From NCBI GenBank assembly GCA_008501765.1, contig QQUE01000015.1, positions 310,001 to 374,000 of the forward strand: a stretch of 64,000 bases of DNA. The letters are read 5' to 3'. The position numbers were made by a program, and so were the translations under genes. Shown here piece by piece: positions 24,965 to 45,777 of the stretch; positions within the stretch are counted from its first letter, which is position 1, and every line of letters begins with the position of its first letter. The notes below the pieces were generated by a model that searched no databases, had not been told where the DNA came from, and saw only the letters and a list, made by a program, of their open reading frames with translations. This stretch comes from Calditrichota bacterium (GTDB taxonomy: Bacteria > Zhuqueibacterota > Zhuqueibacteria > Zhuqueibacterales > Geothermadaptataceae).

Positions 24965-24984
24965 TCAGAGCAAGCTCTGACTAC
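24965..24984. repeat. REP palindrome at the 3' side of the RAYT gene
   Basis: TCAGAGC-AA-GCTCTGA followed by CTAC; the perfect 7-base stem matches the REP on the other side of the transposase. The stop codon of the transposase lies inside this repeat. Confidence 0.75.
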
Positions 24985-25589
24985 GAGCTCCAGTCATCCC
25001 ACCCTTTGCCATAGTTTTTTAAAGGATATTTGAACCAAATTTCTTTCATTTTCTCATATCCGTATTTTTCGAGATAATAATGCACACTCGAGCAGGGCCA
25101 TTCTTGCCATTTTTTTACGTACCCATGTTTCACCGGATTATTATGTATGTAGTTGAAAGTCGTCCAGTAATGTCGTTCACTACGCATAAAACGATCTGAA
25201 TAACTGTGGAAGACCTTGCGTCCTGATCTTTCATCTTCCTTATTCCAGGAAATGGCGTTTATGCTATGAAATGGCTGCACCTTCCTGGAATATTTATCGA
25301 GATCAAGAATGTGGGCAACAAAGTGATAATGATTAGGTAGCACAACCCACAGGTAGAGTTTCTCGCAGCATTCGTTTAAAAATTCCAGCAAAGCCACTGT
25401 AAATTTTTCGAGCCTGTCTGGTGTTGCATTAATGATTTGTTGATGTTCAAAACACGCAGCAGATATCATATAAATTCGATCTTGTTTGATAAATCGAGGA
25501 GGTGAATGCCAAGGCAGACGGTGTGATTTGCGTAGTTCAATCAATGCCTTTCGTTCTCTTTCGCTGAGTTTTCTGCTTTCATACATCAT
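24981..25589 (-). CDS. REP-associated tyrosine transposase (RAYT, TnpA-REP)
   Basis: A Y1 HUH single-strand transposase of the IS200/IS605 superfamily, RAYT branch, about 202 residues. The metal-binding HUH motif is LPNHYHFVAH; the catalytic Tyr lies in TTFNYIHNNPVKHGYV, a RAYT signature, followed by WPCSSVHYY. The frame can extend 20 codons upstream, but that part only translates the flanking REP, so I prefer the ATG at 25589 (GGGGAAT just before it). The gene is boxed by matching REP palindromes at both ends, the textbook arrangement for a domesticated RAYT that scatters REPs. Confidence 0.9.
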   Translation of the reverse strand: MMYESRKLSERERKALIELRKSHRLPWHSPPRFIKQDRIYMISAACFEHQQIINATPDRLEKFTVALLEFLNECCEKLYLWVVLPNHYHFVAHILDLDKYSRKVQPFHSINAISWNKEDERSGRKVFHSYSDRFMRSERHYWTTFNYIHNNPVKHGYVKKWQEWPCSSVHYYLEKYGYEKMKEIWFKYPLKNYGKGWDDWSS

Positions 25590-25619
25590 ATTCCCCATTT
25601 TGAATTTGAAATATTGTTT

Positions 25620-25643
25620 GTAGTCAGAGCTTGCTCTGACTAC
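25620..25643. repeat. Perfect REP palindrome at the 5' side of the RAYT gene
   Basis: GTAGTCAGAGC-TT-GCTCTGACTAC, an 11-base perfect stem with a two-base loop, directly upstream of the transposase and just before the TonB receptor terminator. Confidence 0.85.
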
Positions 25644-25650
25644 GAACAAA

Positions 25651-29086: not shown

Positions 29087-29977
29087 TTAAAACATGTCAT
29101 ATTCCTGGCCGAATACGTTGACCTTGCCATTTATATGTTTACCATTGTCGATGATTTTTCCCTGGTCATCGACGACACCACTGTGGCAATTTCCACAACC
29201 TGTGAGCTCTGATGCGATATGTCCGGTTGGTGGCAACGCGTGGCAGCTGCCACATTCGGCTGTTGACGCATCAACCCAGCTGGCAGTAGAGAAATTACCT
29301 TCCATTTTATCCGCTAAATAAACAAATGCCGAGTTCGAATTAGATTTTTCCAATACCCAGTTACCATGGCAATACGTGTTCGCGCAGGTAGCATTACTCG
29401 TATTATATTGAACTTGAGGTATTCGACTTCCGCCTTCCGTAACTATTACAGCAAGCGTTCCACCAAAGACAACTTCGGCCCCTGTAGTTGCATCGAGGTG
29501 GCCAGCATCATTAAGAGATTGCGGCAATTTGTGGCATTCGTTGCAGGTTGTTGTTAAATCAGGATAATAAGATAAATGTTGTTGATGTGCGCCAACAGCT
29601 CTTTCTGTCACAGCCGTTTCACCGGCTAAACCACCCGGCGGTGCGACATTCGCCAGATCATCTGCTGATGCAGCAAAAACACCGTGGCACGTATTGCAAG
29701 CCTCTGGTCCGTTGTCCTGGCTGTGGCATGTTAAACAGCTTGATTCAACCAGTCCACCGCCGTAATCTGCGCCGTGGCACTGTTGGCATGATTCCATATT
29801 AAAATTGGACGCTGCAATTTCATCCCCATGAAAATTATCAGATGTTTTATCTGCCCATCCCGGTTGATGAATTTCAATTGTAGAAGGACCCACAGGTATA
29901 TTCTGTTGGTCCGAACATGCAGATATAAATATAATTATTAAAAGAGTAGCGAACACATTTTGATATTTCATCAACAT
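29087..29977 (-). CDS. Seven-haem c-type cytochrome lipoprotein
   Basis: A 296-residue lipoprotein: the signal ends IIIFISAC (Cys 21), so it is probably membrane anchored. Haem motifs in order are CQQCH, CLTCH, CNTCH, CNECH, CANTYCH, CGSCH and CGNCH: six CxxCH and one CxxxxCH. The pair CANTYCHGNW then CGSCHALPPTGH is the Geobacter-type CxxxxCH...CxxCH signature found in metal-reducing bacteria. Its ATG lies 1 base after the stop of the 14-haem cytochrome gene, with GGAG 9 bases upstream, so the two are a translationally linked pair. Role in outer-membrane electron transfer is inferred from haem count and context. Confidence 0.88.
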   Translation of the reverse strand: MLMKYQNVFATLLIIIFISACSDQQNIPVGPSTIEIHQPGWADKTSDNFHGDEIAASNFNMESCQQCHGADYGGGLVESSCLTCHSQDNGPEACNTCHGVFAASADDLANVAPPGGLAGETAVTERAVGAHQQHLSYYPDLTTTCNECHKLPQSLNDAGHLDATTGAEVVFGGTLAVIVTEGGSRIPQVQYNTSNATCANTYCHGNWVLEKSNSNSAFVYLADKMEGNFSTASWVDASTAECGSCHALPPTGHIASELTGCGNCHSGVVDDQGKIIDNGKHINGKVNVFGQEYDMF

Positions 29978-29978
29978 T

Positions 29979-31172
29979 TTATTTTACTCCATGACAGTAA
30001 CCGCAAAAACCAACGCCAGCCGTCTGTGTATCGACATGGCAATTATAACAAGATGCTTCGAGATTATCGTGATAATCCCCTCTATCCGTACGCATAAAAC
30101 GAGCTGTATGCGTTTTGGGATCATTTCCGATTCCCGGTGTTCTATCCGTATGGCAGAGCAAACAGGCCGGGTCGCGCCCTTCGAGGTCGTGGCATGACAT
30201 ACAGGATTCGATATCCTGTTTTGCCTGTTTTGCATGGAGGCCGCCCCCACTTCCCACGCCGATGCGGATAAAATCCAACTGGGAATGACCAGCGGGAATC
30301 GGGGAAGAAAATCCGGCATCCTGATCGCTCGTATGGCACTCATTACAAAACGTCTGTTTATTGTGGCACGTTAAACAATCCGTAGTTTTTGCTTTGTGAT
30401 CAATCGCATGCCAGAACAAATAATTATTATCATGGACTTTCTGACTGGTGAGCAATGTCCGACTGAATTGCATCGGCCGTGCTTCCATAAGTGGTCTTTG
30501 AAGCTGCTCAGCCGTCGTCATTACTTGCGCCGCACTGTGGCATTCCTGGCAGGAATTATCAGAGTGGCATGATAAACAATCATTTTCATGCTGGCCTGAA
30601 ATGACAACACGTTTGTGCTGGCGACCCCAATCAGGCTGCAAATGGTTGGCTGGTGTTAGCATTTCAAGCTGGGAATGGCATGTTTCGCAGGTATTGTCCT
30701 GCTGAAACCCATCGTGGCATGTTTGACAAAGTGCCATTGTTGGTAAATTTGCATTCGACGGCGCTTCAGAAGATTCTATCCCGGCATGGCATTTTGTACA
30801 CTTGAGGTCAGCCTCCACATGTAGATTGTGATTGAACACCAATTCTCTCTCAACCTTTGCAAAAGGCACTTGAATTTCAGGATCGACATGACAAAATCCA
30901 CATTCGCCATCATCAATTTCATCGTGACAATCACCGCAGGTTTCCATTTTTGGAAGCAGGAAATCAGATGACAACATACTTTCTTCGGCGGTGACGTGGC
31001 AATCTGCACATTCGGCTTCGACTTCCTCGTGGTGGTATTTGTGGGAAAATATAATCTGCGCCCATTGGTCAACAGGTTCGTTCCAATATTGGCCCGGGAT
31101 GAATACTTTCCACGCAACAATTTGAGAAAAGAAGACAAGCAGAAGAATGAGAATATATTTTTTTTCTTTCAT
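29979..31172 (-). CDS. Fourteen-haem periplasmic c-type cytochrome
   Basis: A 397-residue protein with an N-terminal hydrophobic signal or anchor (YILILLLVFFSQIVAW) and fourteen CxxCH motifs: CADCH, CGDCH, CGFCH, CTKCH, CQTCH, CETCH, CLSCH, CQECH, CLTCH, CNECH, CMSCH, CLLCH, CYNCH and CGYCH. That is one haem per 28 residues, the density of electron-wire cytochromes such as MtrA/OmaB. Extra His residues (FSHKYHH, FNHNLH, FWHAIDHK, PAGHSQ) could be distal haem ligands. It lies between the beta-barrel gene and the 7-haem lipoprotein gene, all on the minus strand, which fits a porin-cytochrome conduit; this complex is inferred, not shown. Confidence 0.9.
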   Translation of the reverse strand: MKEKKYILILLLVFFSQIVAWKVFIPGQYWNEPVDQWAQIIFSHKYHHEEVEAECADCHVTAEESMLSSDFLLPKMETCGDCHDEIDDGECGFCHVDPEIQVPFAKVERELVFNHNLHVEADLKCTKCHAGIESSEAPSNANLPTMALCQTCHDGFQQDNTCETCHSQLEMLTPANHLQPDWGRQHKRVVISGQHENDCLSCHSDNSCQECHSAAQVMTTAEQLQRPLMEARPMQFSRTLLTSQKVHDNNYLFWHAIDHKAKTTDCLTCHNKQTFCNECHTSDQDAGFSSPIPAGHSQLDFIRIGVGSGGGLHAKQAKQDIESCMSCHDLEGRDPACLLCHTDRTPGIGNDPKTHTARFMRTDRGDYHDNLEASCYNCHVDTQTAGVGFCGYCHGVK

Positions 31173-31275: not shown

Positions 31276-32556
31276 CTATTTAACAAAAAACCAGTATTGC
31301 AGGCGCATCAAAAAGCGGTAATCATTATCATAATATTTATTGCTCAACAGGTACAATTGTGTGCTCACGCTTACGGATCGAATCGGTTTGTAAGCTAACC
31401 CGAAACTGCCTGAGAATAAATTGATTCCCTCGTCGACATTTTCATCAATTTTATAAGAAGCCCATGAAATCATGACATTTGGCATCAGTTTGCCACCCAT
31501 CAGCGGGTAATAGCTCGACAAATTAAAACCGTCCATCACACCGGCGTATCCACGGCGTAAAAAGTATTGCACACTGTTATTTCCATGGGTCAATCCGATA
31601 GTTGATCGAATTGATTCGTCAGATTCATAAACGATCGCTGCTGAATTTAAATAGACGCTCATACGTTGGTTCAGGCGGTAATTGATGCCTGCTTCATATT
31701 CGCTGTTGTCAGCAACATTAAAAACCGAAAATATTGAATTGGCTGGTAAAAGTGGTGAGCGGAACAGATATGTCCCTGTTATGGAAATTTTTTCATTGAG
31801 GGCTGCATTGACATTAAATTCTGATCGGGTCAAATTTTCATGATTGAGATCAAAATCATGGCGGGTAAATAAAGTGAGATCTTTTTTTGCAGTCCAGTAA
31901 CCATCCAAAGAAACAAACTGGTATTCCTGCTCTCGCGGTTCAATAAAAGTGGAATAAACGTTACCGAATTCATCGGAGCGCCGGGTATTGTAACCGGGGC
32001 GGTTTTGCCGTTTTAAATTATAACTGGCATTCACCTGAAGATCGGATTTCGGCAGGTAAGAAATTTGCCCGCCGACGAGGAAGTTTTTATCGAGATCGTC
32101 GATAATTTTCATTTCCTGAGTTGCCGGCAGCAATCCACCACCAAATGCTTTAAATTTCAACCATTTTGTAGCTTTGACTTTCACCTGAAATCCATCAAAA
32201 GTGCCGCTGTTGATTCCACCAAAAACAGGTTGACGTCCGAGCTTTAAATCGACGCGTTTTGCGATGTTGCTCCATTGCAAATACAAATTATACATTCGCA
32301 GAACGCCGTCCCCATCAATTGTTGTATTGAAATCTGAATTGACTTGACCGAATGTACGTAAAAGTAAATTTTTTGTACGGTAGTCAAACTGAAATCCCTG
32401 GTAACCCCGCGCGTGGGTCGAAGAAACATCAATTGAATCTGCGCGCTCATAAGCATAAAACGAACTCGTCACCCTGCCGGAAAATGTTTGTGCCGAAATG
32501 AGGCTCGCAAACATGGCGATAAACACAAGAAGATACTTCATAATTGATGATAACAT
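31276..32556 (-). CDS. Outer-membrane beta-barrel protein (candidate porin of a porin-cytochrome complex)
   Basis: A 426-residue protein with a signal peptide ending FASLISAQ and a repeating pattern of alternating hydrophobic beta strands to an aromatic C-terminus (FLMRLQYWFFVK). Strand-turn features such as YLQWSNIAKRVDLKLGRQPVFGG and GLAYKPIRSVSVSTQLYLLSN are typical of outer-membrane barrels. It is shorter than MtrB or OmbB (about 700 residues) and shows no N-terminal CxxC. The same-strand neighbours are the 14-haem and 7-haem cytochromes, 103 bases downstream, which makes a porin-cytochrome conduit the leading idea. A general porin or another barrel is possible. Confidence 0.75.
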   Translation of the reverse strand: MLSSIMKYLLVFIAMFASLISAQTFSGRVTSSFYAYERADSIDVSSTHARGYQGFQFDYRTKNLLLRTFGQVNSDFNTTIDGDGVLRMYNLYLQWSNIAKRVDLKLGRQPVFGGINSGTFDGFQVKVKATKWLKFKAFGGGLLPATQEMKIIDDLDKNFLVGGQISYLPKSDLQVNASYNLKRQNRPGYNTRRSDEFGNVYSTFIEPREQEYQFVSLDGYWTAKKDLTLFTRHDFDLNHENLTRSEFNVNAALNEKISITGTYLFRSPLLPANSIFSVFNVADNSEYEAGINYRLNQRMSVYLNSAAIVYESDESIRSTIGLTHGNNSVQYFLRRGYAGVMDGFNLSSYYPLMGGKLMPNVMISWASYKIDENVDEGINLFSGSFGLAYKPIRSVSVSTQLYLLSNKYYDNDYRFLMRLQYWFFVK

Positions 32557-33532
32557 TTTGACATCGCTCTTAAATTTTTACTCTCCAAACCAACCACATT
32601 TGAAAGAGTTTGAGTTTTTATTAATATTATCTTTTAACTTAAATACGACGTAGCATAACATTAACTAATATTTTTTTAAAAAGCCAATATTTTCCTAAAT
32701 GGTATTAAAAAAATTACATTTAGTCACAAATTGGAACAATTTTACATATTGAAGGCAAATCGTGCCTCAAATCACCTGAAAGACTAAAATTGAAGTTTTA
32801 GGGGATCAATATTTATAGCGATATCATTAAAACAGGCAAAAAAAATTAATTATCGGCATCAACACCAATAATATCAGGATGAAGGAAAATGACTTTTTGC
32901 AAGGAAAATCAAATTAAAATTTAGGTATTCAGAGAATCAAAAGGAGGGCAACAAAAACCACACTTTTGATTATTTTATCTTATCGAAGTTGCATACCGTT
33001 CGAAAAGAAAATTTTATAAGAACTATTTTCTTAACAGCAGAAAATGAAGAGCTCTCGATAGGCTAAAGGCTCATTCCCCTAAAAAAACATTGAAATACCA
33101 TCTCCAAATCATTCAACGGAGCAGCCAATAGTTACATTTGTTTCCACAATTAGGGTGCAAATTTCTGTTGCTAAAAAATATTTGGACCATCTAAAAAAAT
33201 CGATGTCTGTGTATTCGAAATCTGTCAGGGTAGCTGTCAAATTTTCGTCACTTAGTGAAAACAATTTGCAATTTTTAAAGACAACAACAAAAGCTCAATT
33301 ATAAAATACAGTAATGACAGTCTCAGGCTCAAGCTCATAATTAACTATAACTTCAATATATGTTAAAATTTTCTTAATTTATTAGCTCATAAGAAAAAAT
33401 AATTATTGATTGTAAATATAAAAAATAATATATTATTTTTGTAGACAAAGAACTTTAAAAAAAAAGGAAAGCTCAAATTCAGTTTATTTGAGTGACTAAA
33501 ATTATTAACTATTAAAAACTGAGGTGCGTCTT
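32557..33532. other. Divergent intergenic region, about 975 bp
   Basis: Lies between the divergently transcribed barrel and collagen-like cytochrome genes, so it must hold both promoters. It also holds a decayed 3' end of a sorting-domain gene (32936-33060, listed separately). Sequence near 33400-33480 is extremely AT-rich and includes ATATTATTTTTGTAGAC, shared with 38542-38558. No small gene is supported. Confidence 0.55.
32936..33060 (-). pseudogene. Remnant 3' end of a T9SS-sorted (cytochrome-type) gene plus its terminator
   Basis: Read on the minus strand, this stretch encodes SSFSAVKKIVLIK, close to the last residues SGSFSAVKKMVLMK of the intact 9-haem gene, but the stop codon is lost and the frame upstream is broken. 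It is followed, as in the intact copy, by a sequence matching the hairpin region ATCAAAAGGATGG...CCATCCTTTTGAT, here decayed. The alignment to 34800-34930 runs over about 130 bases. This is the scar of an extra gene copy. Confidence 0.7.
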
Positions 33533-34645
33533 ATGAGAAACAGTTCAAAGAAAAACGTATTGCTTAGCTGGTTGGTTGCTCTTGCAGTTTTGCTTGTCAT
33601 GGGATTAGCTGGCTGCGAAGGCCCAAAAGGTCCTGAAGGACCAGAAGGCCCAATGGGCCCGCAAGGTCCAGCTGGTAATGATGGTATTGATGGTGTTGAT
33701 GGCGCTGATGGATCTGATGGCATTGATATGACCGCGTCCGCTTGTACAGGATGCCACAATAACGATATAATAATTGCAAAACGCGCTGAATTGAACCAGC
33801 ATGACCACGCAACGATGGCCAACTCATTGAGCCGCGGCGGCAGTAGTACATGCGGACGCTGCCATTCTCATGAAAATTTCAGGGCCTTTGTCGAAACAGG
33901 GTCCGGTATGGAAATGGAAACAGTTACAGGTTTAACATGTAAATCTTGTCACACCTTGCATGATGATGAGAACGTTGGCAATTTCTCCTATGATGTACTT
34001 GTTACAGATCCTCCTGAGACTTTGACAGGCGTAGATATTTCTTTTGGTGACGCCGCTAATACAAACTTGTGTTTACAGTGCCACCAACCACGCCGTGACT
34101 TTACAGCTTACGACACTACACCGGACGATGGAACTGATTCCGTATATGTAACCAGTAGCCATGCCGGGCCACATTATGGTCAGATGGGTTCCAATCTTTT
34201 CGGACTTGGGGCTGATGACAGAAATGGTTCTGCTGCGTTAGATCAAGGTCCAATGGCCCATGCTACCGGCGCAAGCTGTGTTGTATGCCATATGGGTGCA
34301 AATGCCAACCACAAATTCGAACCAACTGTAGATAACTGCACTACATGCCATGCCGGGGCTGCAGACCTGGATATCAATGGTGCAGCAACTAAAATGCTTG
34401 ACGCGGTCCATGCAATAGAAGCAAAATTGGTTGAACTGGGTTGGTATTCCGAGGATGAGGATGGTCTGAGCAGCAACGCATCAAGTGGTTCTCCACTTGG
34501 AATGACGGGAGCAGAATTTACAGCATTCTGGAACTATAACGTCATTCACGCAGATCATGGCGCTGTTTATCACAATCCACCTTATGCTAAAGCTATGATC
34601 AACAATATCGAAGAAAACCTGGGTATGCCGCTTACTGTCTGGTAA
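33533..34645 (+). CDS. Six-haem c-type cytochrome lipoprotein with collagen-like repeat
   Basis: A 370-residue lipoprotein (lipobox LAGC, Cys 28). Residues 30-65 are twelve perfect Gly-X-Y triplets, Pro-rich then Asp-rich (GPKGPEGPEGPMGPQGPAG, then GNDGIDGVDGADGSD). Six haem motifs follow: CTGCH, CGRCH, CKSCH, CLQCH, CVVCH and CTTCH, with many extra His residues. Collagen-like repeats trimerise and form stiff stalks, so a membrane-anchored trimeric haem stalk is an attractive inference. The ATG at 33533 is chosen because GAGGTG lies 6 bases upstream. It is monocistronic, with a strong terminator. The barrel operon is transcribed divergently. Confidence 0.9.
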   Translation: MRNSSKKNVLLSWLVALAVLLVMGLAGCEGPKGPEGPEGPMGPQGPAGNDGIDGVDGADGSDGIDMTASACTGCHNNDIIIAKRAELNQHDHATMANSLSRGGSSTCGRCHSHENFRAFVETGSGMEMETVTGLTCKSCHTLHDDENVGNFSYDVLVTDPPETLTGVDISFGDAANTNLCLQCHQPRRDFTAYDTTPDDGTDSVYVTSSHAGPHYGQMGSNLFGLGADDRNGSAALDQGPMAHATGASCVVCHMGANANHKFEPTVDNCTTCHAGAADLDINGAATKMLDAVHAIEAKLVELGWYSEDEDGLSSNASSGSPLGMTGAEFTAFWNYNVIHADHGAVYHNPPYAKAMINNIEENLGMPLTVW

Positions 34646-34664
34646 TAACCTAAAGTCGAAACTT

Positions 34665-34694
34665 AAAAAAGGGAACCAGGTGGTTCCCTTTTTT
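34665..34694 (+). terminator. Rho-independent terminator of the collagen-like cytochrome gene
   Basis: A 14-base stem AAAAAAGGGAACCA / TGGTTCCCTTTTTT with a two-base loop, 19 bases after the stop codon; T run on the plus strand. Confidence 0.92.
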
Positions 34695-34804
34695 ATTTTA
34701 TAGACCTTCCATTCCGTAAATTGGACGCAACAGGTCTAAGTTACAAAGGAAGGGAATTGGTAAATTTGGTAGGAGAATTAGATTAAAATGGAGATATTCT
34801 AAGG

Positions 34805-34879: not shown

Positions 34880-37666
34880 TTACTTCATCAGAACCATTTT
34901 CTTCACAGCGGAGAAAGAACCACTTTCCAAACGATACATGTACATTCCTGATGAAAGTGCATTTCCTGTATCATCACGGCCATCCCAAACAACGGAGTAT
35001 TTTCCAACAGCCTGTGACTCTTCAACGAGTGTGCGAACCTCTGTTCCCAGCATTGAATAGACACGCAGTGTTACATTACCCTGCGTTGGCAATTGATATT
35101 CAATTGTTGTTTCAGGATTAAACGGATTTGGATAGTTATTCATCAGTGCATATTCAGTTGGCAAGGCATCAGAGCCAGCCACACCAGTAATGCTTGCGGT
35201 AAGTTCTGAGGTCAAATCGCCTTGATTTTCGGAGAAATCAAAGGCAGCGATTCTGTAAAAATATTTTGTTCCAATAGTAACATCTGCATCAATATAATCG
35301 AGGCCGGTGAGCGTCGCTAATATATTATCCTCAGATGGTGCAAAACCGCTTTCTTCGCTGCGGTAAATGGCGAAGTAGTTGAAATCAGCATCTTCGGACT
35401 CATCCCACGCCATCAGCACACCATCATCCGTGACTTCAAGAGTAGCGTTGGCTGGAGCCATAGGAACGAGATTATCAACAGAAAATCCGGAAGCGGGAGC
35501 TGTTTCAAATCGTCGGCCACTTATTGTGCCGGCAATTTTAAATGTCGAAATACCTTCGCTCGATGGTGTTTTGTCATACAGTGTTGGGACAACGATGCTG
35601 TATGTTTCATAACCAGCAGCAGGTATCCAGGCTACAAAATCCCATGTTTCACCTTCTTGAATCAGGCGGAATTTTGTACCAACATTACCAGAATTGGATT
35701 GCGCAAGCATTTGATCAAAAGACTCAACCTTTTCAGCCTTACCAACAGCGCCATTTTCCATCATGCGGTAAACGGAATAGCTTTGCAATGGATTGGCTGA
35801 TGGGCCATCACTGGCAAATTTTGACCAGGCTATACGCACTTGTTTACCTTGATCATTTGGAATATCAGTAATGGAAATAATTTCACCAGCACCAATATCA
35901 CCCGTTGTAAGCGATGCAATTGAACGACGCATCAATGCTAACGAGTAACCAGCATTATGAATACCGTGGCTTCCATCCTGATGGACGAACTGGTAGTTAA
36001 AGGTCGCTTTAAGTAATGCTTTGCGATAGGCTATTTCTTTTGGATCTGTCTGATCTCTCCAATCAACAGTTGCAGAATCAATTAATACATCAGGAGAACC
36101 AAAAGGAGGCAACAACGTACCCAGTTTATGCATCATGCTTTCAACTTCGTGGGTTGTTGAAGATATAACGCCATCCTGATCCCAGTCTGCTTTTGCCTTA
36201 ATATCATCCCAGGAATCTATTGGGCCATGGCAAGGCTCACAGACGGAAGTATTTTGAACATCATCAGAAGGATCATCTGGTGTACCATTAAGGTGTCTCA
36301 CGTTAAATGAGTGATTTCCAATCATTTGGAAACCAGGCTCACCTTCGGCAGGACCATCAGCCATGTGGCAGCCAACACATGCTTCAGTAACAGCATATTT
36401 GTGACCGGAAGTTCCAATTGGAATGCCATAATCAATGGCGTTGGAACCATCTAACATATCGGCCTGATTACTATAGTGTGAACCAAAATGACTGCTGATG
36501 TTGTCTGCATTAGCGGCATATTCTATAGCCGGTCTGCGTCCTTGATGGCATTGCATGCAGAGTTTGCCCTGACCACCATAATCGATGACTGTTACTCCAT
36601 CAGCCAGAGTTATATCTGCCATACTACGAACATGGGCAGGATTTTCTTTGCTGTGTGGATCGTGACAAACAGCACAAGTGGTTTCTTTAACACCAAGTTC
36701 AGGACGCTTATCATCATCCATCGGATCAATTTTACGAATAAATCCCCAGCCAGAGTGACAATCCGCACAGCCGCCCCGTGTTGCTCCACGGGCATAACCA
36801 ATCGCGTGTTTGGAGTTTTTCCACTGGATATTATTCGTATGATACGGCTCTTCTTCATGGCAATAACCGCAAACAGCAGCATCGAGGCTCATATCGATAC
36901 CATCTTTTTTCCCGCCGTGCAGGCTTGCGGGGCCATGACACGATTCACATTGGATATTTGCCCGATGGGCCAGTTTTTCAAAATTATCCTTCACATCTGT
37001 CCAGTTTCCTGCTTCCAGTGTATCTGGAAAAAGCCAGCCGAGTTCTGCTTGAACGTCATCAAATCCATCATTTCCATCAGCATCAGCGTCGTAGCCGGTG
37101 GTGTGGCATTCGATGCAATATTCAGCATAATGACTGCTCACTTCGCCATCGATTGCACGGGAAAACATCGTTGCGTGATCTGTCGCAGCCCACTGGTCAA
37201 AATTTGTCGCGTGGCAAAAGGTACATTGCCCAGCGCCCACATCAATTGGCAATCCATCCATACCTCCAACACCAACAAATTTTGCTACAGTAATTATTCT
37301 TGAGGCGGCTTCGCTAGTACCCGTATCATCAGTAACTACCAAATCGATCTGGAATTTACCAACCATATCTGGTATAAATGTTATTTCCTGCAGATCAGTC
37401 GCACCGAGAACAGCGGCGGAGCCATCGGGCGTAGAGACTAATGTCCAGGCATAGGTCGTCATCCCGGCATCTCCTACAAGATAAACCATTTGATTGACGC
37501 CAACCACATCGAGTCCAGTCGCCCGCGGTGTTGTCAGCCCGGCATCATGAATTTCCTGATGGCTATACCCTTTAACAGCGATTTCTGCTGTTGGCTGGGC
37601 GGTTAGAGTCAATGTACAAACGAACATAAGAACGAGGGTGCTGCAGATTAATTGTAAACGATTCAT
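34880..37666 (-). CDS. Nine-haem cytochrome c with PKD-like, FN3-like and T9SS sorting domains
   Basis: A 928-residue secreted protein. Order: signal peptide ending TLTAQ; a PKD/Ig-like domain (about 45-130, VGDAGMTTYAWTLVSTPDG); a haem region (about 145-480) with CTFCH, CIECH, CESCH, CGYCH, CADCH, CAVCH, CMQCH, CVGCH and CEPCH; a helical region with histidines; one or two FN3-like domains (about 600-830); and a C-terminal T9SS sorting domain from NNYPNPFNPETTIEYQLP to the end FSAVKKMVLMK. Known T9SS cargo crosses the outer membrane and is attached to or released from the surface, so this would be a cell-surface cytochrome. AAGGAGAAGAAA precedes the ATG. No T9SS machinery genes lie in the window. 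Confidence 0.92.
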   Translation of the reverse strand: MNRLQLICSTLVLMFVCTLTLTAQPTAEIAVKGYSHQEIHDAGLTTPRATGLDVVGVNQMVYLVGDAGMTTYAWTLVSTPDGSAAVLGATDLQEITFIPDMVGKFQIDLVVTDDTGTSEAASRIITVAKFVGVGGMDGLPIDVGAGQCTFCHATNFDQWAATDHATMFSRAIDGEVSSHYAEYCIECHTTGYDADADGNDGFDDVQAELGWLFPDTLEAGNWTDVKDNFEKLAHRANIQCESCHGPASLHGGKKDGIDMSLDAAVCGYCHEEEPYHTNNIQWKNSKHAIGYARGATRGGCADCHSGWGFIRKIDPMDDDKRPELGVKETTCAVCHDPHSKENPAHVRSMADITLADGVTVIDYGGQGKLCMQCHQGRRPAIEYAANADNISSHFGSHYSNQADMLDGSNAIDYGIPIGTSGHKYAVTEACVGCHMADGPAEGEPGFQMIGNHSFNVRHLNGTPDDPSDDVQNTSVCEPCHGPIDSWDDIKAKADWDQDGVISSTTHEVESMMHKLGTLLPPFGSPDVLIDSATVDWRDQTDPKEIAYRKALLKATFNYQFVHQDGSHGIHNAGYSLALMRRSIASLTTGDIGAGEIISITDIPNDQGKQVRIAWSKFASDGPSANPLQSYSVYRMMENGAVGKAEKVESFDQMLAQSNSGNVGTKFRLIQEGETWDFVAWIPAAGYETYSIVVPTLYDKTPSSEGISTFKIAGTISGRRFETAPASGFSVDNLVPMAPANATLEVTDDGVLMAWDESEDADFNYFAIYRSEESGFAPSEDNILATLTGLDYIDADVTIGTKYFYRIAAFDFSENQGDLTSELTASITGVAGSDALPTEYALMNNYPNPFNPETTIEYQLPTQGNVTLRVYSMLGTEVRTLVEESQAVGKYSVVWDGRDDTGNALSSGMYMYRLESGSFSAVKKMVLMK

Positions 37667-37883: not shown

Positions 37884-38255
37884 CTACATTGCTTCAAGTG
37901 ATTTCTTTTTAATATTATGGATGATTTCCAGCAAAGGGAATGTACTCAAAGGTTTTTGGGTAATATAAAAAATGCCCAAATCCATTAAACAAGCACCCTT
38001 TTCCCGGCTGATGCATGGGCATGTTGTAATTATGGGAATTCTTGGGCGCAATTTGTGAATGTGTTCCAGCCATTTTAAACAATCATCTTCGTATTTTTCC
38101 CAGTCAAAAAGGATGAGCTTGAAATCGTCATTGTGCAGACGCAGAAGCAGATCAGCCATGTCCCGTTCGACACTCCAGTCGATTTCCGCTTTTCCTGCGA
38201 TTTGAGAACAGACAGTGAGTACCTGCTCGTCATTGGTAATAACTATGGCCTGCAC
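37884..38255 (-). CDS. Stand-alone receiver (CheY-like) domain protein
   Basis: A 123-residue receiver domain with no output domain. The phospho-acceptor is Asp 51 in FKLILFDWEKYEDD; an acidic pair sits in ITNDEQ and the conserved Lys in YITQKPLS. The switch Thr/Ser is seen as IITTCPC. The start is a GTG preceded by GGAGG at the right distance and matches the normal receiver start; an ATG nine codons earlier lacks a ribosome binding site. It sits between the 9-haem cytochrome and an NtrC-type regulator, so it may relay or sink phosphoryl groups for the nearby kinase. Confidence 0.75.
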   Translation of the reverse strand: MQAIVITNDEQVLTVCSQIAGKAEIDWSVERDMADLLLRLHNDDFKLILFDWEKYEDDCLKWLEHIHKLRPRIPIITTCPCISREKGACLMDLGIFYITQKPLSTFPLLEIIHNIKKKSLEAM

Positions 38256-38734
38256 AAGAACCTCCAATTCCTGGACTACCATAAGCAATTTTTATACCCT
38301 TCCAGTAAAAGTTCAATAATATTTAATCTTAATAGATAAACTCCTATAAAACAGTATTTCAGTTTTATTACCACATAATTATAATTTAATAATCTAATCC
38401 CATCAGTGACATAAATGTCCCAGTCTTAATCTATAACTGTGGTTTATCTACGCTCAATTTTTCAATTTAAATCAGGCGGTATATTTTTTTAAGTAGTGAG
38501 AACACCTTGTCTCCAAAAAATATTAAATACCAAAAAAACTAATATTGTTTTTGTAGACTATAATTCATTTATAACATATTTCTACTAACACTGTCATAAA
38601 AGAAGTATTTTTTGTATGAAAACTTTTAAAGGGTGATTAACGTGAAAACGAGATTTTTGTGGGAGGGAGGTCGAGATATAATCTTATGTTTTTTACAAAT
38701 AAAGGATGGATAATTTCAATCGCGGTCTACAACA
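38256..38734. other. Intergenic region, about 480 bp
   Basis: Upstream region of the stand-alone receiver gene and downstream of the NtrC-type gene. Very AT-rich. Contains ATATTGTTTTTGTAGAC at 38542-38558, matching 33430-33446 in front of the collagen-like cytochrome at 16 of 17 positions. I found no -24/-12 sigma-54 promoter and no small gene. Confidence 0.5.
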
Positions 38735-40132
38735 TCAATTCCGCCAAACAACCGGATTAAATTGATACCTGTTTAACAATCGATGCAAATTTCGCCGTGT
38801 CATACCTGACTCTTTGGCGATATTTGTCACATTACCGTGGTGTTGCGTGAGCAGTCGAAGCAAATATTCTTTTTCAATTTTTTCAATGGCCTCCTTTTTC
38901 GCATCAACCAAGCTGAGGTTTTTGCTTTCTACCGATTTTGATTTGGTACTCTTTCTAATTTGTACGGGTATATCATCGAGAGATATTATATCCTCCCGAG
39001 TCAAAGCAACGGCGCGCTCAACCACATTCTCCAACTCGCGAACATTGCCCGGCCACGAATAGGACTCTAAACAAGCCATAACGTCGTTATCAAATCCAAA
39101 AATTTCCTTAGTCGTAGATTTCAAACAGCAATCGAGAAAAGAATAGGCGAGCAACTTGACATCCTCCTGCCGGTCCCGCAGAGGGGGTAAATGGATATTG
39201 ATCACGTTAATGCGGTAATAGAAATCTCTCCGTAAAGCATTCGTTTCCAATGCTTTATCAGGATCAATATTTGAAGCAGAAATAAACCGGATATCGATAT
39301 CTACCAGTTCACTTGAGCATAGGTGTCGCAATTGTTTTTCCTGCAAAACACGTAAAAGTTTTGGTTGCAAATAAATAGGCAGTTGACAAACTTCATCCAT
39401 AAAAAAACTGCCCTTGTGTGCAAATTCCAGCAACCCAAGTTTTTGTTGTGTCGCGCCTGTGAAAGCGCCTTTTTCATAACCAAATAATTCTGATTCAAAG
39501 AGTTGTTCCGGCAAAGCGCTGCAATTTACCGGCACGAACGCTTGATTTTTTCGCAAACTTTGCTTGTGAATGCTGCGAGCCACCAATTCTTTGCCAGTGC
39601 CACTTTCTCCAGATATAAAAATATTGGCGTCCGTTTCAGCAACGTCTGTAATTAATGAAAATATCGACCGCATGGCCTTGCTTTTTCCGACCATTTTATC
39701 AAAACATGGAATTACGATTTCAGGCAAATCTTTATTCTGAATTTTGTAGTGGCGTAATTCTCTAAATTTACTGGCTTTATCTAAAATAGAATAGACCTGC
39801 TTATCGACGAGCGGCTTTTCGATAACTTCAGAAGCACCGAATTTTATTGCTTCGACTCCCAGGGAAATATCATCATTCGAGGTGCTTATTACAACTGGGA
39901 TTCGGAGGGAAAGCCGTTTTACTTTTTTTAGAAAGTTTATACAGGCGATTGGAGAATTTGAAAAACCGCAAAGAATGAGATCATAATCATTATATTGTAA
40001 ATAATCCCAGGCAAGATCAACACTTTTAGCGATATCAAGGGATGCGGGGTAGCCCCGAATTTTATTTAACTGCGCGGAAGGCAGTTCATTTACTTCATCA
40101 ATTGCAAGGATTTTCACATTTGTATTCTGCAT
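38735..40132 (-). CDS. Sigma-54-dependent regulator with degenerate receiver domain
   Basis: A 465-residue NtrC-family activator. The N-terminal domain (1-120) is receiver-like but the phospho-acceptor Asp is replaced by Gly 56 (DLILCGFSNS), while the Lys (VIEKPL) and Ser/Thr (VVISTSND) remain. The AAA+ domain has Walker A GESGTGKE, the sigma-54 contact loop [11 protein letters not shown], Walker B-like GSFFMDEV and the [13 protein letters not shown] sensor region. A Fis-type helix-turn-helix ends the protein (GNVTNIAKESGMTRRNLHRLL). It is likely regulated without phosphorylation. The ATG at 40132 lacks a clear ribosome binding site; a TTG seven codons upstream is the alternative. Confidence 0.92.
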   Translation of the reverse strand: MQNTNVKILAIDEVNELPSAQLNKIRGYPASLDIAKSVDLAWDYLQYNDYDLILCGFSNSPIACINFLKKVKRLSLRIPVVISTSNDDISLGVEAIKFGASEVIEKPLVDKQVYSILDKASKFRELRHYKIQNKDLPEIVIPCFDKMVGKSKAMRSIFSLITDVAETDANIFISGESGTGKELVARSIHKQSLRKNQAFVPVNCSALPEQLFESELFGYEKGAFTGATQQKLGLLEFAHKGSFFMDEVCQLPIYLQPKLLRVLQEKQLRHLCSSELVDIDIRFISASNIDPDKALETNALRRDFYYRINVINIHLPPLRDRQEDVKLLAYSFLDCCLKSTTKEIFGFDNDVMACLESYSWPGNVRELENVVERAVALTREDIISLDDIPVQIRKSTKSKSVESKNLSLVDAKKEAIEKIEKEYLLRLLTQHHGNVTNIAKESGMTRRNLHRLLNRYQFNPVVWRN

Positions 40133-40398
40133 GCTCGGCCCGGTAATATTCAAATTATTAATAAAATTCTGGTAACAAAATGCCGATCATTGATTTAAAT
40201 CAGGCAGTAAATCTTCTTATTGAGCATTTTTTACATTAGAACTCTTAATAAGATAGTTCAACCAACCAGTATAAAGCAAGAAAAAAACAATGAAACATAT
40301 TGATTCCAGTGATTCTATAAAACCTAAAAATACCGTAGGAACAAAAAATTACTGGCGCCTCCTTTTATGCAAAACGATTTGCTAATTGTAAGATGACG

Positions 40399-40432
40399 AA
40401 AAAAAAAGAGGATGGCTACAATCGCCATCCTC
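40399..40432 (-). terminator. Rho-independent terminator of the eight-haem cytochrome gene
   Basis: Stem GAGGATGGC / GCCATCCTC with a 7-base loop followed, on the minus strand, by a run of eight to nine T (40399-40407). It lies about 125 bases beyond the stop codon, after the gene remnant. Confidence 0.88.
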
Positions 40433-40469
40433 ACCACTTACTTATAAAGGAAATAAGATTTTTTTTATT

Positions 40470-40530
40470 CCATCAAAACATTTTCTTCACTGCAGCAATG
40501 GATGTGCTCTCAATGCCAAATCTGTTCACT
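40470..40530 (-). pseudogene. Remnant C-terminus of a T9SS-sorted gene
   Basis: Read on the minus strand it encodes RFGIESTSIAAVKKM, then one missing base shifts the frame; restoring it would give KKMVLME and a stop. This copies the end of the sorting domain (compare SGSFSAVKKMVLMK in the 9-haem protein). It lies between the intact 8-haem gene and its terminator, so a tandem gene was probably lost by deletion. Confidence 0.7.
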
Positions 40531-40557
40531 TTACTTTGAACAGCTAAAAGGTCTAAT

Positions 40558-42516
40558 TTACTTGGTCAACAGCATTTTCTTCGTTTGAACAAAACCGTTC
40601 ACTTCAAGGCGGTAAATGTAAACGCCTGAAGTAAGTCCACTTGCATCAAAATTCAGAGTAAAATGACCTTTGCCCAACGCTTTATTTACCAACACGGCAA
40701 CTTCCTGTCCAATAATATTATAGACTTTCAGTTTTGCAAAACCAGCGTCAATAATATCAAAAGAAATCTTTGTTTCAGGATTAAATGGGTTTGGATAATT
40801 CTGTCCCAGGCTGTAGGTTGCCGGAATTTCTTCATCAAAAGCTTCCACAGACATCGGCGCACCAGTATCCCACCATGATCCGCCAGGGCCATAATAAACC
40901 ATAAGTGCATTGGCCATAGCTACGTCTGTGGCTTCGTTCCAGGTACCAAAATCATCACCAGCCAGGTCAACACCCAAATTTGGAACACCGTCGTTCATGT
41001 GGCAACTTACGGCACATGAATTTGGCATGCCGCCTTCAGGCTGATAAAACGTAGTCAGCTCTGGTGACAATACGTGAAAAGTATGCGCATGAATATCATA
41101 TTTTACAGCAGACTTGGCAATTTTTGGCATATGGCATTTGGAACAACGGCTTGAACCAGTACCCGTTGGATCGTAGGAATGATTAGTGTGTGCTGAAACG
41201 ATAGGTGCAATGTCATCGATATGATTGGCATAATCAGCTATCCACTCAACAGGAATCGCTTCAAAATCACCATGCGTTGCGTGACAAGCCAGACAGAGTG
41301 TATTGTCGTCATTGTCGGTTGCTACCACAATATCAGCCCCGAGAGAATCCGTTTCCACTAATTTTTGACGCACGTGATGTTTCTCAGTATTGTGAACATT
41401 GTGGCATTCATAACAGGTTACATTATGAAATTGGAAAGTCGGCTTATCGCTCTCATAGAAATCGAAGAAATGTTGGTGATGACTGCTGGATGATTTTCCA
41501 TCCGGCCAGTTACCGCCACCGTCGGTATAATAGTCCGCAACTAAATCACCAATTGACCAACGCGCCAAATTTTCGTCGTCATAAGGGTAAGACAGCGTAT
41601 TGTTCGGCAAACTTTTTCCGCGTGAGTGACACATGCCACAAAGATTGTTTGCCTGGTCGGCTGTTAAGTTTGCAGGATTAATAATTTTGGTTTTATCAGT
41701 CGTTGCTGCGTGATCGCTGCCAGGGCCGTGGCATGTTTCACATGATGTATTCATAACATCCAAATCGCCATCGCCATCGAGGTCGTAAACATTATTGTAA
41801 TTGGCATACAACGCTTCATTTTCAACGCCTGCGCCGTGCTGTATCCATTCCCCATTGCCATCTTGTTCAACTTCGAGAGCCGTAACGTGACAACCGGAGC
41901 ACCCCTTGGTCATACTTCTGTTATTGGTTGCTGCCAAAGCAAGCGTTGTATAGTCAATAGGTGCATTGCTGGCGTCATACCATGCTTCAGGATGATAGAG
42001 TACGTACTCAAATGTTTTCTCATTAAACTGGATTGGAGAAATATAATGATCCTTGGATTCACCTTCTGAGGTATTGATTTTTACAGCGTACCGCTGCTTA
42101 TACAATCCACTTCCACCATAAGTCAAATACATGCGGTGCGTGGCACTTCCAATTGTGATGGTGTAGCCATCATCCGCAGAATATGCCAAGATCGGTGCAT
42201 TGGGTTTGTATGGATCAAAAACACTGCTGATTGAATTGAAATCTAATCCGTCATGAAAATCATCAATACCATTTTGGTCGTAATCATTGACAACACCAGT
42301 ATGGGACTGCATTGTGAATTTATCATCGAGCTGGGATGAATAACCGTTGGCATGCATAGAAGTCCGCCAACCGGTCATATCACCAAGGCCGGCATTATTG
42401 TGGCACTGCAAACATTTTTCAGGGCCAACATAGGTTTGAGAAATTAGACTACCGGGAACCGCTACAAATGCAAAAGCAACGATAACTAAAATAACTAAGT
42501 AACAATTTTTCTTCAT
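40558..42516 (-). CDS. Eight-haem cytochrome c with T9SS sorting domain
   Basis: A 652-residue secreted cytochrome. Signal peptide ends SLISQ; haem motifs are CLQCH, CSGCH, CETCH, CGMCH, CYECH, CLACH and CSKCH plus a non-standard CAVSCH (CxxxCH), so eight sites. The first half carries Asp-rich segments (DYDQNGIDDFHDG, DLDGDGDLDV) that look like calcium-binding loops. The C-terminus from LGQNYPNPFNPETKISFDI to QTKKMLLTK is a T9SS sorting domain, so surface location is expected. Part of the haem region resembles cytochrome c554-type octahaem proteins in general layout only. GGAGATTGAA precedes the ATG. Confidence 0.92.
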   Translation of the reverse strand: MKKNCYLVILVIVAFAFVAVPGSLISQTYVGPEKCLQCHNNAGLGDMTGWRTSMHANGYSSQLDDKFTMQSHTGVVNDYDQNGIDDFHDGLDFNSISSVFDPYKPNAPILAYSADDGYTITIGSATHRMYLTYGGSGLYKQRYAVKINTSEGESKDHYISPIQFNEKTFEYVLYHPEAWYDASNAPIDYTTLALAATNNRSMTKGCSGCHVTALEVEQDGNGEWIQHGAGVENEALYANYNNVYDLDGDGDLDVMNTSCETCHGPGSDHAATTDKTKIINPANLTADQANNLCGMCHSRGKSLPNNTLSYPYDDENLARWSIGDLVADYYTDGGGNWPDGKSSSSHHQHFFDFYESDKPTFQFHNVTCYECHNVHNTEKHHVRQKLVETDSLGADIVVATDNDDNTLCLACHATHGDFEAIPVEWIADYANHIDDIAPIVSAHTNHSYDPTGTGSSRCSKCHMPKIAKSAVKYDIHAHTFHVLSPELTTFYQPEGGMPNSCAVSCHMNDGVPNLGVDLAGDDFGTWNEATDVAMANALMVYYGPGGSWWDTGAPMSVEAFDEEIPATYSLGQNYPNPFNPETKISFDIIDAGFAKLKVYNIIGQEVAVLVNKALGKGHFTLNFDASGLTSGVYIYRLEVNGFVQTKKMLLTK

Positions 42517-42875
42517 TTCAATCTCCGCCTTTAATAAGATAAAAAAAACAATACATATTATGATCTGATCGACATGAGAACGGTATTAAGTATTCCGGTT
42601 ACCTCCTTTGTTCGAATTCCAAGGAATGCGTAGTAGAATTAAAGCATGCTCTACTACAAGAAAGATGCCGTAGTTTATTACAATTATTAGTGCAAACTCA
42701 TCCGAAAGAATTTTGGATTTTTGTATATTAGAAACAACAACTTAGGCAGGATATAGATATTTTTGTGAGTGTGGTATTCGGAATGAGATTTTGTTAAAAA
42801 ACACGTTTTTTCGTTAATTGGAGTGAAATATCGTTTTTTTATTGGCAATCAAGTAAAACACGGACTGGTAAAAAA
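42517..42875. other. Intergenic region, about 360 bp
   Basis: Promoter region of the 8-haem cytochrome gene, downstream of the sigma-54 response regulator. It contains a REP-like palindrome at 42630-42657. I searched by eye for GG-N10-GC type -24/-12 elements on the minus strand and found none that convinced me. Confidence 0.5.
42630..42657. repeat. REP-like inverted repeat GTAGTAGA..TCTACTAC
   Basis: Eight-base perfect arms separated by 12 bases that include AGCATGCT. It resembles the GTAGTCAGAGC..GCTCTGACTAC palindromes beside the RAYT gene and could be a distant relative or an operator for the cytochrome gene. Confidence 0.5.
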
Positions 42876-44240
42876 TCACTCAATTTTGCCAACAAGCCCA
42901 TACTTTTCCATTTTTGAGCGCAGCGTAGAAACCGGGATGCCCAAATTTTCAGCAGCTTTTACCTGCTTTCCGTTCGATTTTTGCAATGCCTGACGGATGA
43001 AATTCATTTCCATTTCCGACATAATTTGATCTAAAGAGGCATTGCCATTGGTTTTCCTCCTGGCCGTGTCATCACAGTGTAAAAGTTCCACCGGCAAAAG
43101 CGAAACATCAATCGTCTTTCCCCGTGAGAGCAATAACAAACGTTCGACGATATTTTTCAATTCGCGTACGTTGCCAGGCCAATTATACATTTTCATATAT
43201 TCGACCACTTCAGGCTGCACGACGGGTGTTTTTCCCTGGGAAAATTGATTAATGTAAGTATCGAATAGTAAGGGTATGTCTTCTTTACGTTTGCGGAGAG
43301 GTTGTATATGCAGTGGAAAGATATTGAGGCGATAGTATAAATCTTCGCGAAATTTGCCATCCTTTACCATCTGCAGTAGATCGGCTTTTGTTGAGGCGAT
43401 GACCCGGACATCCACTTTAATCGTATTGTTCCCTCCCACCCGCTCGAATTCCTGTTCCTGCAAGACTCGTAATAATTTAATTTGCAAATCGAGGGGAATA
43501 TCATCGACATCATCCAGATAGAGTGTGCCCCCGTCTGCGGTTTCAAATCGACCAAGCCGCTCTTTGTCTGCTCCGGTAAACGCACCTTTTTCGTGGCCAA
43601 AAAGCTCACTTTCAAATATCTCACGGGAAAGAATAGCACAACTGACTTTGATAAGTGGATTTTTGCTACGGCTGCTGTAATTATGAATTATGTTGGTTAA
43701 CAACTCTTTGCCGGTCCCCGTTTCGCCGGTTATCAAAACGGTGGTGGACGATGAAGCGATCGTTTCCACATGATCAAATATTTTTTTCATGACTGCGCTC
43801 TCACCCACAAAAGCGCTTAATGGATATTTTGATGAAAAGTGAGAACGCAAGCGTTTATTTTCACTTTTAATCTGCTGAATCTCACGAATCCGATCGAGCA
43901 ATATAAAAATCTCCTCCATTTCGAACGGTTTCGTTAAATAATCGTAAGCGCCTTCCTTCATCGCTTTAACAGCCGTATCCACAGATCCGTGCGCGGTAAT
44001 CATGATGACAATAATATCAGGTTGGACAGCTTTAATTTGTTTTAGCAAGTCGATACCATTCATATCAGGCATTTTGATATCAGAAAAAACAATATCCATT
44101 TTTTCGTTTTGAATAAAATCTAAAGCCGCCTGCGGATCGCTGAAGCCCCATACTTGATATCCAGCATCCTGCAATTCGTCGACGAGAGAAATCCGTACTA
44201 TTTCTTCATCATCAACCACAGCAATTTTAATTGGCAACAT
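42876..44240 (-). CDS. Sigma-54-dependent response regulator, NtrC family
   Basis: A 454-residue activator with an intact receiver: acidic pair VVDDEE, phospho-acceptor Asp 54 in [11 protein letters not shown], Lys in LTKPF. The AAA+ domain has GETGTGKE, the [11 protein letters not shown] loop that contacts sigma-54, and [13 protein letters not shown]; a Fis-type helix-turn-helix ends it ([20 protein letters not shown]). It is 28 bases downstream of the histidine kinase gene and is almost certainly its partner. Probable targets are the neighbouring cytochrome genes, but no binding site was found. Confidence 0.95.
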
Positions 44241-44268
44241 ATTGTTCCTATAATCTTTTATGGCTTTA

Positions 44269-45777
44269 TTAATTATCCGGTTTCAAGGGGAGAAAAACAG
44301 AAAAGACGGAACCTCTTCCCTTTTCACTGCTCACCTCGATTCGCCCATGGTGTGCTTGAATTATATTATAGCAAACCGCCAATCCGAGTCCGGTTCCCTG
44401 ACCGATTTGCTTTGTGGTAAAAAACGGATCAAATATCTTTTCTCTGATTTTATAAGGAATACCGGTTCCGTTGTCCGAAACCGATAGTACAAGAAACCAC
44501 TTTTCCTGCACTATTGCAATTTCAATTTTTCTTTCATTCATGGTTCGAATTCGGCCACCCTCATTAATTGCGTCAATACTATTAATTAGTAAATTTACTA
44601 CAACCTGCTCAAGTTGATTAAGACTTCCTTGAATATGAGGCAAGATTGACGGAATATTTTTCTTCACCGATATAGCGGATTTCTGCAACTTGTATTCGAG
44701 CAACAAGAGTGCTTTTTCAATGACCTCTTTACAATCCACATCCTGGAATGTTAACTCATCTTTTCGAGAATAGGCAAGCATATCATGCTCGACTCGAGAA
44801 ATTTTATCCACTGCATCTGCCATCAGCGCAAGATACTTCTGGTTTTGCTCGGTATTTTCAGGATATTTTTGCATCCGCCGGATGCAGTTTTTTAACCCGG
44901 CGATAGGATTATTTATTTCATGGGCAATTCCTGCAGCAAGGGTGCCCAAAGATGCCATTTTTTCGGATTGAATAATCATGGATTGCGCAGCTTCCAGCTC
45001 AGCATAGGCATTTTCAAGCCGGGCGACCATACCCTTAAATTTGTCGAGCAGCAGGTCGAGTTCATCATCCGTGCGGAACGGGGTTCCAAAACGGCCGAGA
45101 AATTTAATTCTATTCTTAATTTGTGTCTGTGAGCGGCGTTTTAATGCGGAAAAATCAAGATGGGCCGCCGCTTCACTTATTTCTTTTATCGGGTGGGTTA
45201 TGATATATGAAAATAGAAAAGCCCCTACAATTCCCGCTACTAAAAACACCGCAATCATTATAAAAAAAACCTGGACGGTGGCCCGGGCATTTTTGCGAAT
45301 TTCGTCTTCCAGAACACCAATTCGGATTGTGCCGAGATTCCCCTGCAGAAGTGGAACTGCAATATCACGCAACGTACCAAATTGCGCATTCAGGGGCTGA
45401 ATAATACGAATACTTTTTTCCTGACCGGCTTTGAGCGGATTTGCATTAATCAGTGCATTGGGGAAACTTTGACCAAAGGTATGGACGAGAACTTCGTTCT
45501 CATTATCGAGGACAAAAATATAGGCAATCGTTTCATCGATTCCGCGTGTATCCTCCAAAATTTGCTGCAATGTGATATAGTCTGAATATAACAACAAATC
45601 GATTGCTTGTTCCGCCAGGCTGAGACCGATAAAATTACCCCGCTTTTCCGATTCTTTCTCCAGCGACGTTGAAACATTTTGCATAATCAGATAAGTGTTT
45701 ATTGAGCCAAACAGGGCTACTATGGCAATAATAGCGATGGAAAACTTCCAAAATAGTGGTAGTGAAAAATGCTTCAT
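44269..45777 (-). CDS. Membrane sensor histidine kinase
   Basis: A 502-residue kinase. TM1 about 8-28, periplasmic region 29-165, TM2 about 168-192, HAMP 193-250, a short coiled coil, then HisKA with the phospho-accepting His about residue 286 in GIAHEINNPIAGLKN, and a HATPase_c domain with N box NLLINSIDAI, G1 SDNGTGIP, F box FDPFFTTK and G2 GQGTGLGLAV. No receiver domain is fused. The upstream binding-protein gene overlaps it by 4 bases, which suggests that protein is its periplasmic sensor, as in AioS. Confidence 0.93.
   Translation of the reverse strand: MKHFSLPLFWKFSIAIIAIVALFGSINTYLIMQNVSTSLEKESEKRGNFIGLSLAEQAIDLLLYSDYITLQQILEDTRGIDETIAYIFVLDNENEVLVHTFGQSFPNALINANPLKAGQEKSIRIIQPLNAQFGTLRDIAVPLLQGNLGTIRIGVLEDEIRKNARATVQVFFIMIAVFLVAGIVGAFLFSYIITHPIKEISEAAAHLDFSALKRRSQTQIKNRIKFLGRFGTPFRTDDELDLLLDKFKGMVARLENAYAELEAAQSMIIQSEKMASLGTLAAGIAHEINNPIAGLKNCIRRMQKYPENTEQNQKYLALMADAVDKISRVEHDMLAYSRKDELTFQDVDCKEVIEKALLLLEYKLQKSAISVKKNIPSILPHIQGSLNQLEQVVVNLLINSIDAINEGGRIRTMNERKIEIAIVQEKWFLVLSVSDNGTGIPYKIREKIFDPFFTTKQIGQGTGLGLAVCYNIIQAHHGRIEVSSEKGRGSVFSVFLPLKPDN

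Follow-up and report, generated by a model that had tools for sequence, protein, structure and literature searches.

A lipid-anchored hexahaem cytochrome with a collagen-like tether, encoded beside a porin-cytochrome conduit in a Calditrichota bacterium

A gene at positions 33533 to 34645 (plus strand) of a 64,000-nucleotide stretch of Calditrichota bacterium DNA (contig QQUE01000015.1; the whole stretch is termed the window) encodes a 370-amino-acid hexahaem lipoprotein with a collagen-like tether, as identified by translation and a Pfam scan. The product is probably (probability of about 0.7) exposed on the cell surface, where it would act as the last cytochrome of a porin-cytochrome conduit, attached by its lipid anchor and with a Gly-X-Y tether holding the haem domain off the membrane. 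This reading is favoured because of the OcwA/NrfA-like fold of the haem domain and because of a conduit neighbourhood that recurs in 11 loci from three phyla. We conclude that the protein is exchangeable, in the terminal position of an extracellular electron-transfer system, with a nine-haem form carrying a type IX secretion system (T9SS) sorting tail.

The gene is a normal single-gene unit: the ATG at 33533 has a Shine-Dalgarno-like GAGGTG upstream (33521 to 33526, plus strand), and beyond the stop codon there is a strong intrinsic terminator with a 14-bp stem and a T-rich tail (34664 to 34695, plus strand). No RNA element or tRNA was found near the gene. Translation and homologue alignment place a signal peptide and an LAGC lipobox, diagnostic of a lipoprotein, at 33533 to 33616 (plus strand), with the lipid-modified Cys28 at 33614 to 33616; a Cys28-Glu-Gly-Pro motif is invariant in 31 aligned homologues. 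The tether (33620 to 33727, plus strand) is followed by six haem motifs on the same strand: CTGCH (residues 71-75; 33743 to 33757), CGRCH (107-111; 33851 to 33865), CKSCH (136-140; 33938 to 33952), CLQCH (180-184; 34070 to 34084), CVVCH (249-253; 34277 to 34291) and CTTCH (269-273; 34337 to 34351). Of the 31 aligned members, 30 had six motifs and one, L003, is truncated at the end of its contig. The sixth motif is CxxCH in 16 members and is lengthened in 14 homologues, to CxxxCH in 9 and to CxxxxCH in 5.

The tether consists of the uninterrupted triplets GPK GPE GPE GPM GPQ GPA GND GID GVD GAD GSD GID. A sequence-only reading had described twelve unbroken Gly-X-Y triplets at residues 30-65, located between a lipid anchor and a six-haem domain and divided into Pro-rich and Asp-rich halves; translation and a Pfam Collagen match bore out the repeat, the LAGC Cys28 and six CxxCH motifs flank it as proposed, and the halves carry six Pro at X and six Asp at Y, respectively. 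The match to PF01391 (Pfam Collagen) scored 29.9 bits against a cut-off of 27.2 and was the only one in the 5.9-Mb genome, such that a general collagen habit of the genome was rejected. A chance origin was also rejected, as an in-register run of 12 at the protein's own Gly content of 11.6% has a probability of ~2e-9. Other PF01391 matches examined in the window's phylum lacked haem motifs, except for the copy of this gene in a congener. An uninterrupted Gly-X-Y tract scoring above the Pfam cut-off is shared with bacterial collagen-like proteins of the Scl1/Scl2 type, but the window tract is much shorter, has a lipid anchor at its N end and a haem domain as passenger, and forms, at most, a putative triple helix.

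Across the 31 homologues, the in-register position was Gly in 266/266 triplets. Other residues occurred at register only among the final five positions ahead of the first haem, and each of the four Gly codons was in use. Comparisons of similar tract pairs detected 130 synonymous and 0 non-synonymous differences in Gly codons and 106 synonymous and 220 non-synonymous differences in X/Y codons, in a test that is partly circular, the tract being delimited by its own Gly run, and whose pairs are not independent. The codon pattern, hence, supports but does not prove selection on the glycine period of the tether. Every third residue stays Gly even though X, Y and the codons for Gly vary, which speaks against a random spacer. 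Asp occupies Y in about half of the triplets, the net charge of the spacer is negative (−3 to −10 among homologues) and tether length changes by whole triplets.

The sequence-only reading had named homologues without the repeat at the same position as counter-evidence and had proposed to see whether the triplet number varies among homologues. All of the six-haem relatives examined (50/50, from the window genus, Fidelibacterota and Bacteroidota) carried the repeat there, and the number of triplets after the lipobox Cys varied from 4 to 15, being 6 to 14 in 31 Fidelibacterota and window-genus members and 4 to 15 in 19 six-haem Bacteroidota members; these two sets make up the sequences read, with some hits of 500 to 600 amino acids left out. 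L085, L155 and L161 were among the few members with several other residues between the lipobox Cys and the tract. Inclusion of the tract in the family query favours tethered hits, yet untethered nine-haem forms were easily recovered. In L164, a span of about 8 kb contains three tethered paralogues with six haems each, which have 15, 5 and 5 triplets and are suggestive of fast change of tether length.

A profile built from three sequences matched 17 of 82 genomes of the window's phylum. The tethered form was present in the window and in congener G001 alone (13 triplets, 85% identity) and was absent from 80 of the 82 genomes, several of which are incomplete or fragmented. The remaining matches were nearly all proteins of ~750 to 950 amino acids, a type represented in the window by the nine-haem gene at 34880 to 37666, and the match in L023 was a short lipobox-plus-GXY stretch only. 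About 28 full-length members were detected in 245 genomes of Neomarinimicrobiota/Fidelibacterota, and a match was present in 73 of 395 Bacteroidota genomes. In trees, the window genus and two Fidelibacterota sequences formed a group (100/100), which was nested in a larger clade of mostly Fidelibacterota members. This placement and the absence from most genomes of the phylum suggest that the gene was acquired horizontally by the window genus from a Fidelibacterota-like lineage, a suggestion on which our reading of the protein does not depend. A mobile, phage or plasmid origin was rejected: there were no plasmid or viral-contig relatives, and the single phage hit was a 56-base stretch over the Gly-rich tract. 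An open reading frame at 24981 to 25649 resembles, by eye, a REP-associated tyrosine transposase.

An AlphaFold2 model of the protein (pLDDT of 73) was compared with known structures. Residues 64-365 share a fold, including a C-terminal helix bundle, with OcwA/NrfA-type cytochromes; the matches were 6i5b (OcwA, the outer cell wall nonahaem cytochrome of Thermincola potens) and 6qvm (an S-layer undecahaem cytochrome of Carboxydothermus), both with a Z of 14.9 over ~230 residues, followed by NrfA with a Z of about 13. A PDB sequence search with only three homologues gave no match; a 31-sequence profile detected 6i5b (E of 9e-13), 6qvm (8e-12) and NrfA (1e-9). The order of the haem motifs is also shared with OcwA and 6qvm. 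Both are cell-surface multihaem cytochromes, a location that we infer for the window protein too, and OcwA, described as a terminal reductase (PMC6703420), occurs as a monomer or dimer. The window protein differs from these in having six haems (against nine in OcwA), a lipid anchor, a collagen-like tether and a Gram-negative-type envelope with a porin conduit. The CxxCK catalytic haem of NrfA is absent, all motifs being CxxCH with CxxxCH or CxxxxCH at haem 6 only. Membership of the MtrC/OmcA family was rejected, with TIGR03507 scoring 15 bits against a cut-off of 209. In addition to the six proximal His residues, six further His (92, 143, 214, 243, 260 and 347) are invariant or nearly so. His214 is invariant and is followed by His in most homologues and by Tyr in the window protein. 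By homology to OcwA, five of the haems are suggested to be bis-His, and the one located under the His214 motif may be open; the candidate for a five-coordinate haem is haem 2, as the counterpart of OcwA haem 5.

The conduit genes lie on the minus strand. A 426-amino-acid outer-membrane beta-barrel (31276 to 32556), the porin of the conduit, is conserved through the window's order; its model has 24 predicted strands, a pLDDT of 83.6 and the form of a single-domain outer-membrane barrel. The adjacent gene (29979 to 31172) encodes an exported, presumed periplasmic, cytochrome of 397 amino acids with 14 CxxCH motifs, whose homologues adjoin the barrel in three phyla. A second multihaem lipoprotein of 296 amino acids (29087 to 29977) was assigned to the conduit from its sequence, Pfam matches and neighbourhood comparison. 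Barrel and multihaem cytochrome are encoded together, as is characteristic of porin-cytochrome systems. The tethered gene adjoins genes for a barrel and a 12-14-haem cytochrome in the window, in G001, in two Fidelibacterota genomes and in seven Bacteroidota genomes. No conduit was found in the fetched flanks of about 25 Fidelibacterota members or in nine examined Bacteroidota loci, and so the gene is without a constant linkage to the conduit. Nor is it essential to the conduit, as congener G002 has the conduit and lacks the tethered gene; about 800 bp are present there, and the contig ends soon after.

Several other genes were observed near the cytochromes. The region from 37884 to 46709 encodes a response-regulator-like receiver, two sigma-54 activators, a histidine kinase and a phosphonate-type binding protein, and homologues of one sigma-54 activator and of the histidine kinase adjoin the tethered gene in L084. 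The gene at 40558 to 42516 encodes another multihaem cytochrome with a T9SS tail, whose 51% identical homologue in L086 has seven CxxCH motifs. In L184, L192 and L193, the genes located less than 3 kb from the tethered gene include one for a 13-haem cytochrome and one for a six-haem protein of ~735 amino acids with a membrane cytochrome-b-like start.

The gene at 34880 to 37666 (minus strand) encodes an untethered paralogue, a nine-haem OcwA-like cytochrome with a T9SS sorting tail (Por_Secre_tail). It aligned with the six-haem family by hhalign with an E of 1e-35 over 300 columns, the homology spanning its last six haems. This paralogue occupies the same place beside the conduit but has three extra haems and a type IX tail and lacks both lipobox and tether. 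None of the nine-haem relatives examined had a tether and most had the sorting tail. In the window's order, most genomes have the nine-haem gene next to the conduit genes in place of the tethered gene, while in the window genus the tethered gene is located between the nine-haem gene and the conduit set, on the opposite strand. Between 29087 and 37666 lies a set of four genes (for a T9SS-tailed nine-haem cytochrome, a barrel, a 12-14-haem cytochrome and a multihaem lipoprotein) that is conserved in most of the order and recurs in other phyla with an exchangeable outermost cytochrome.

The tether may be a single polyproline-like chain or a triple helix within a trimer. A true triple helix of the kind envisaged in the sequence-only reading, in which three lipid-anchored chains would form an outer-membrane stalk bearing a trimer of six-haem domains with 18 haems, is doubtful. 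The unbroken in-register Gly, the contrast between the Gly codons (130 to 0) and X/Y codons (106 to 220) and the whole-triplet changes in length are consistent with such a stalk, as are oligomers above dimers in the superfamily: 2ot4 is titled hexameric and hydroxylamine oxidoreductase (HAO) forms trimers. Asp at Y is, however, unfavourable for a stable triple helix, according to host-guest peptide work, and half of the window's triplets have this residue; moreover, hydroxyproline is not expected, OcwA as the closest structural relative is a monomer or dimer and the codon test is partly circular. Many members have just 4 to 7 triplets and are unlikely to form a stable stalk from their own tract. 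The tether was also modelled at low confidence in the monomer (pLDDT mostly 38 to 57), as is expected for a lone chain. The alternative of a generic low-complexity lipoprotein spacer, demanding only length and hydrophilicity, is conceivable, with the odds somewhat against it. Tether lengths vary widely, even among the three paralogues of one genome, and MtrC of the Shewanella MtrCAB conduit has, in the sequence of PDB 7o7g, a short, four-triplet Gly-X-X stretch, GSDGNNGNDGSD, directly behind the lipid Cys. Furthermore, Fidelibacterota lipoproteins with unrelated domains (EB_dh-type and small proteins) carry the same tether as the six-haem family in front of those domains, and it hence looks like a reusable module; in L111, L116 and L118 it is followed by an ethylbenzene-dehydrogenase-like domain, with PF09459 found in the L111 protein. 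A spacer of this kind does not readily account for strict Gly periodicity with varied X and Y and use of all four Gly codons. The earlier remark on an unusual electron-transfer design was, therefore, right in part, the haem passenger being set behind a tether that also serves other domains and has a short counterpart in MtrC.

A further alternative would place the protein in the periplasm, as an enzyme-like reductase of the nitrite or hydroxylamine type attached to the inner face of the outer membrane. The NrfA/OcwA fold, the solitary position of many members and the invariant His214 in a His-His/His-Tyr motif, similar to the distal His pair of the open haems of OcwA, are compatible with this role, but the missing CxxCK motif, the recurrent linkage to outer-membrane conduits and the exchange with sorting-tail paralogues make it quite improbable. 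Assignment as the terminal cytochrome of the conduit has its own difficulties: the other lipoprotein cytochrome (29087 to 29977) could be the exit, many loci have no conduit nearby while G002 has one without the gene, and the best Foldseek matches of the barrel were other barrels and not MtrB-type conduit porins. The terminal-cytochrome reading nevertheless remains the preferred one. Electrons would cross the outer membrane via the barrel and its 12-14-haem cytochrome and would then reach the six-haem OcwA/NrfA-like domain, which would give them to an external acceptor or draw them from an external donor. The protein would stay attached by the acyl chains of Cys28 and the Gly-X-Y tether would keep the haem domain away from the membrane, a part equivalent to that of the type IX sorting tail in the nine-haem paralogues. 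In its way of working the protein would resemble MtrC, also a multihaem cytochrome of the cell surface with a lipid anchor and with a barrel and a cytochrome at its side, although MtrC has ten haems, beta-barrel domains, a staggered-cross haem layout and a tether of only four triplets.

The protein connects collagen-like repeats with extracellular electron transfer, and a literature search found no paper discussing both together. A more elaborate picture is unlikely, in which a widespread FCB-group family of outer-membrane cytochromes would form trimers, each raising ~18 haems off the membrane on a lipid-anchored triple-helical stalk of tunable length, and would swap with T9SS-secreted nine-haem cytochromes at the outer end of porin-cytochrome conduits. 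In the case of a triple helix, tether length would determine how far out the haems meet minerals, electrodes or partner cells. For uncultured FCB-group bacteria, these analyses provide a candidate rule: six-haem OcwA-like cytochromes would depend for attachment on a lipid with a Gly-X-Y tether and nine-haem forms on the type IX system.
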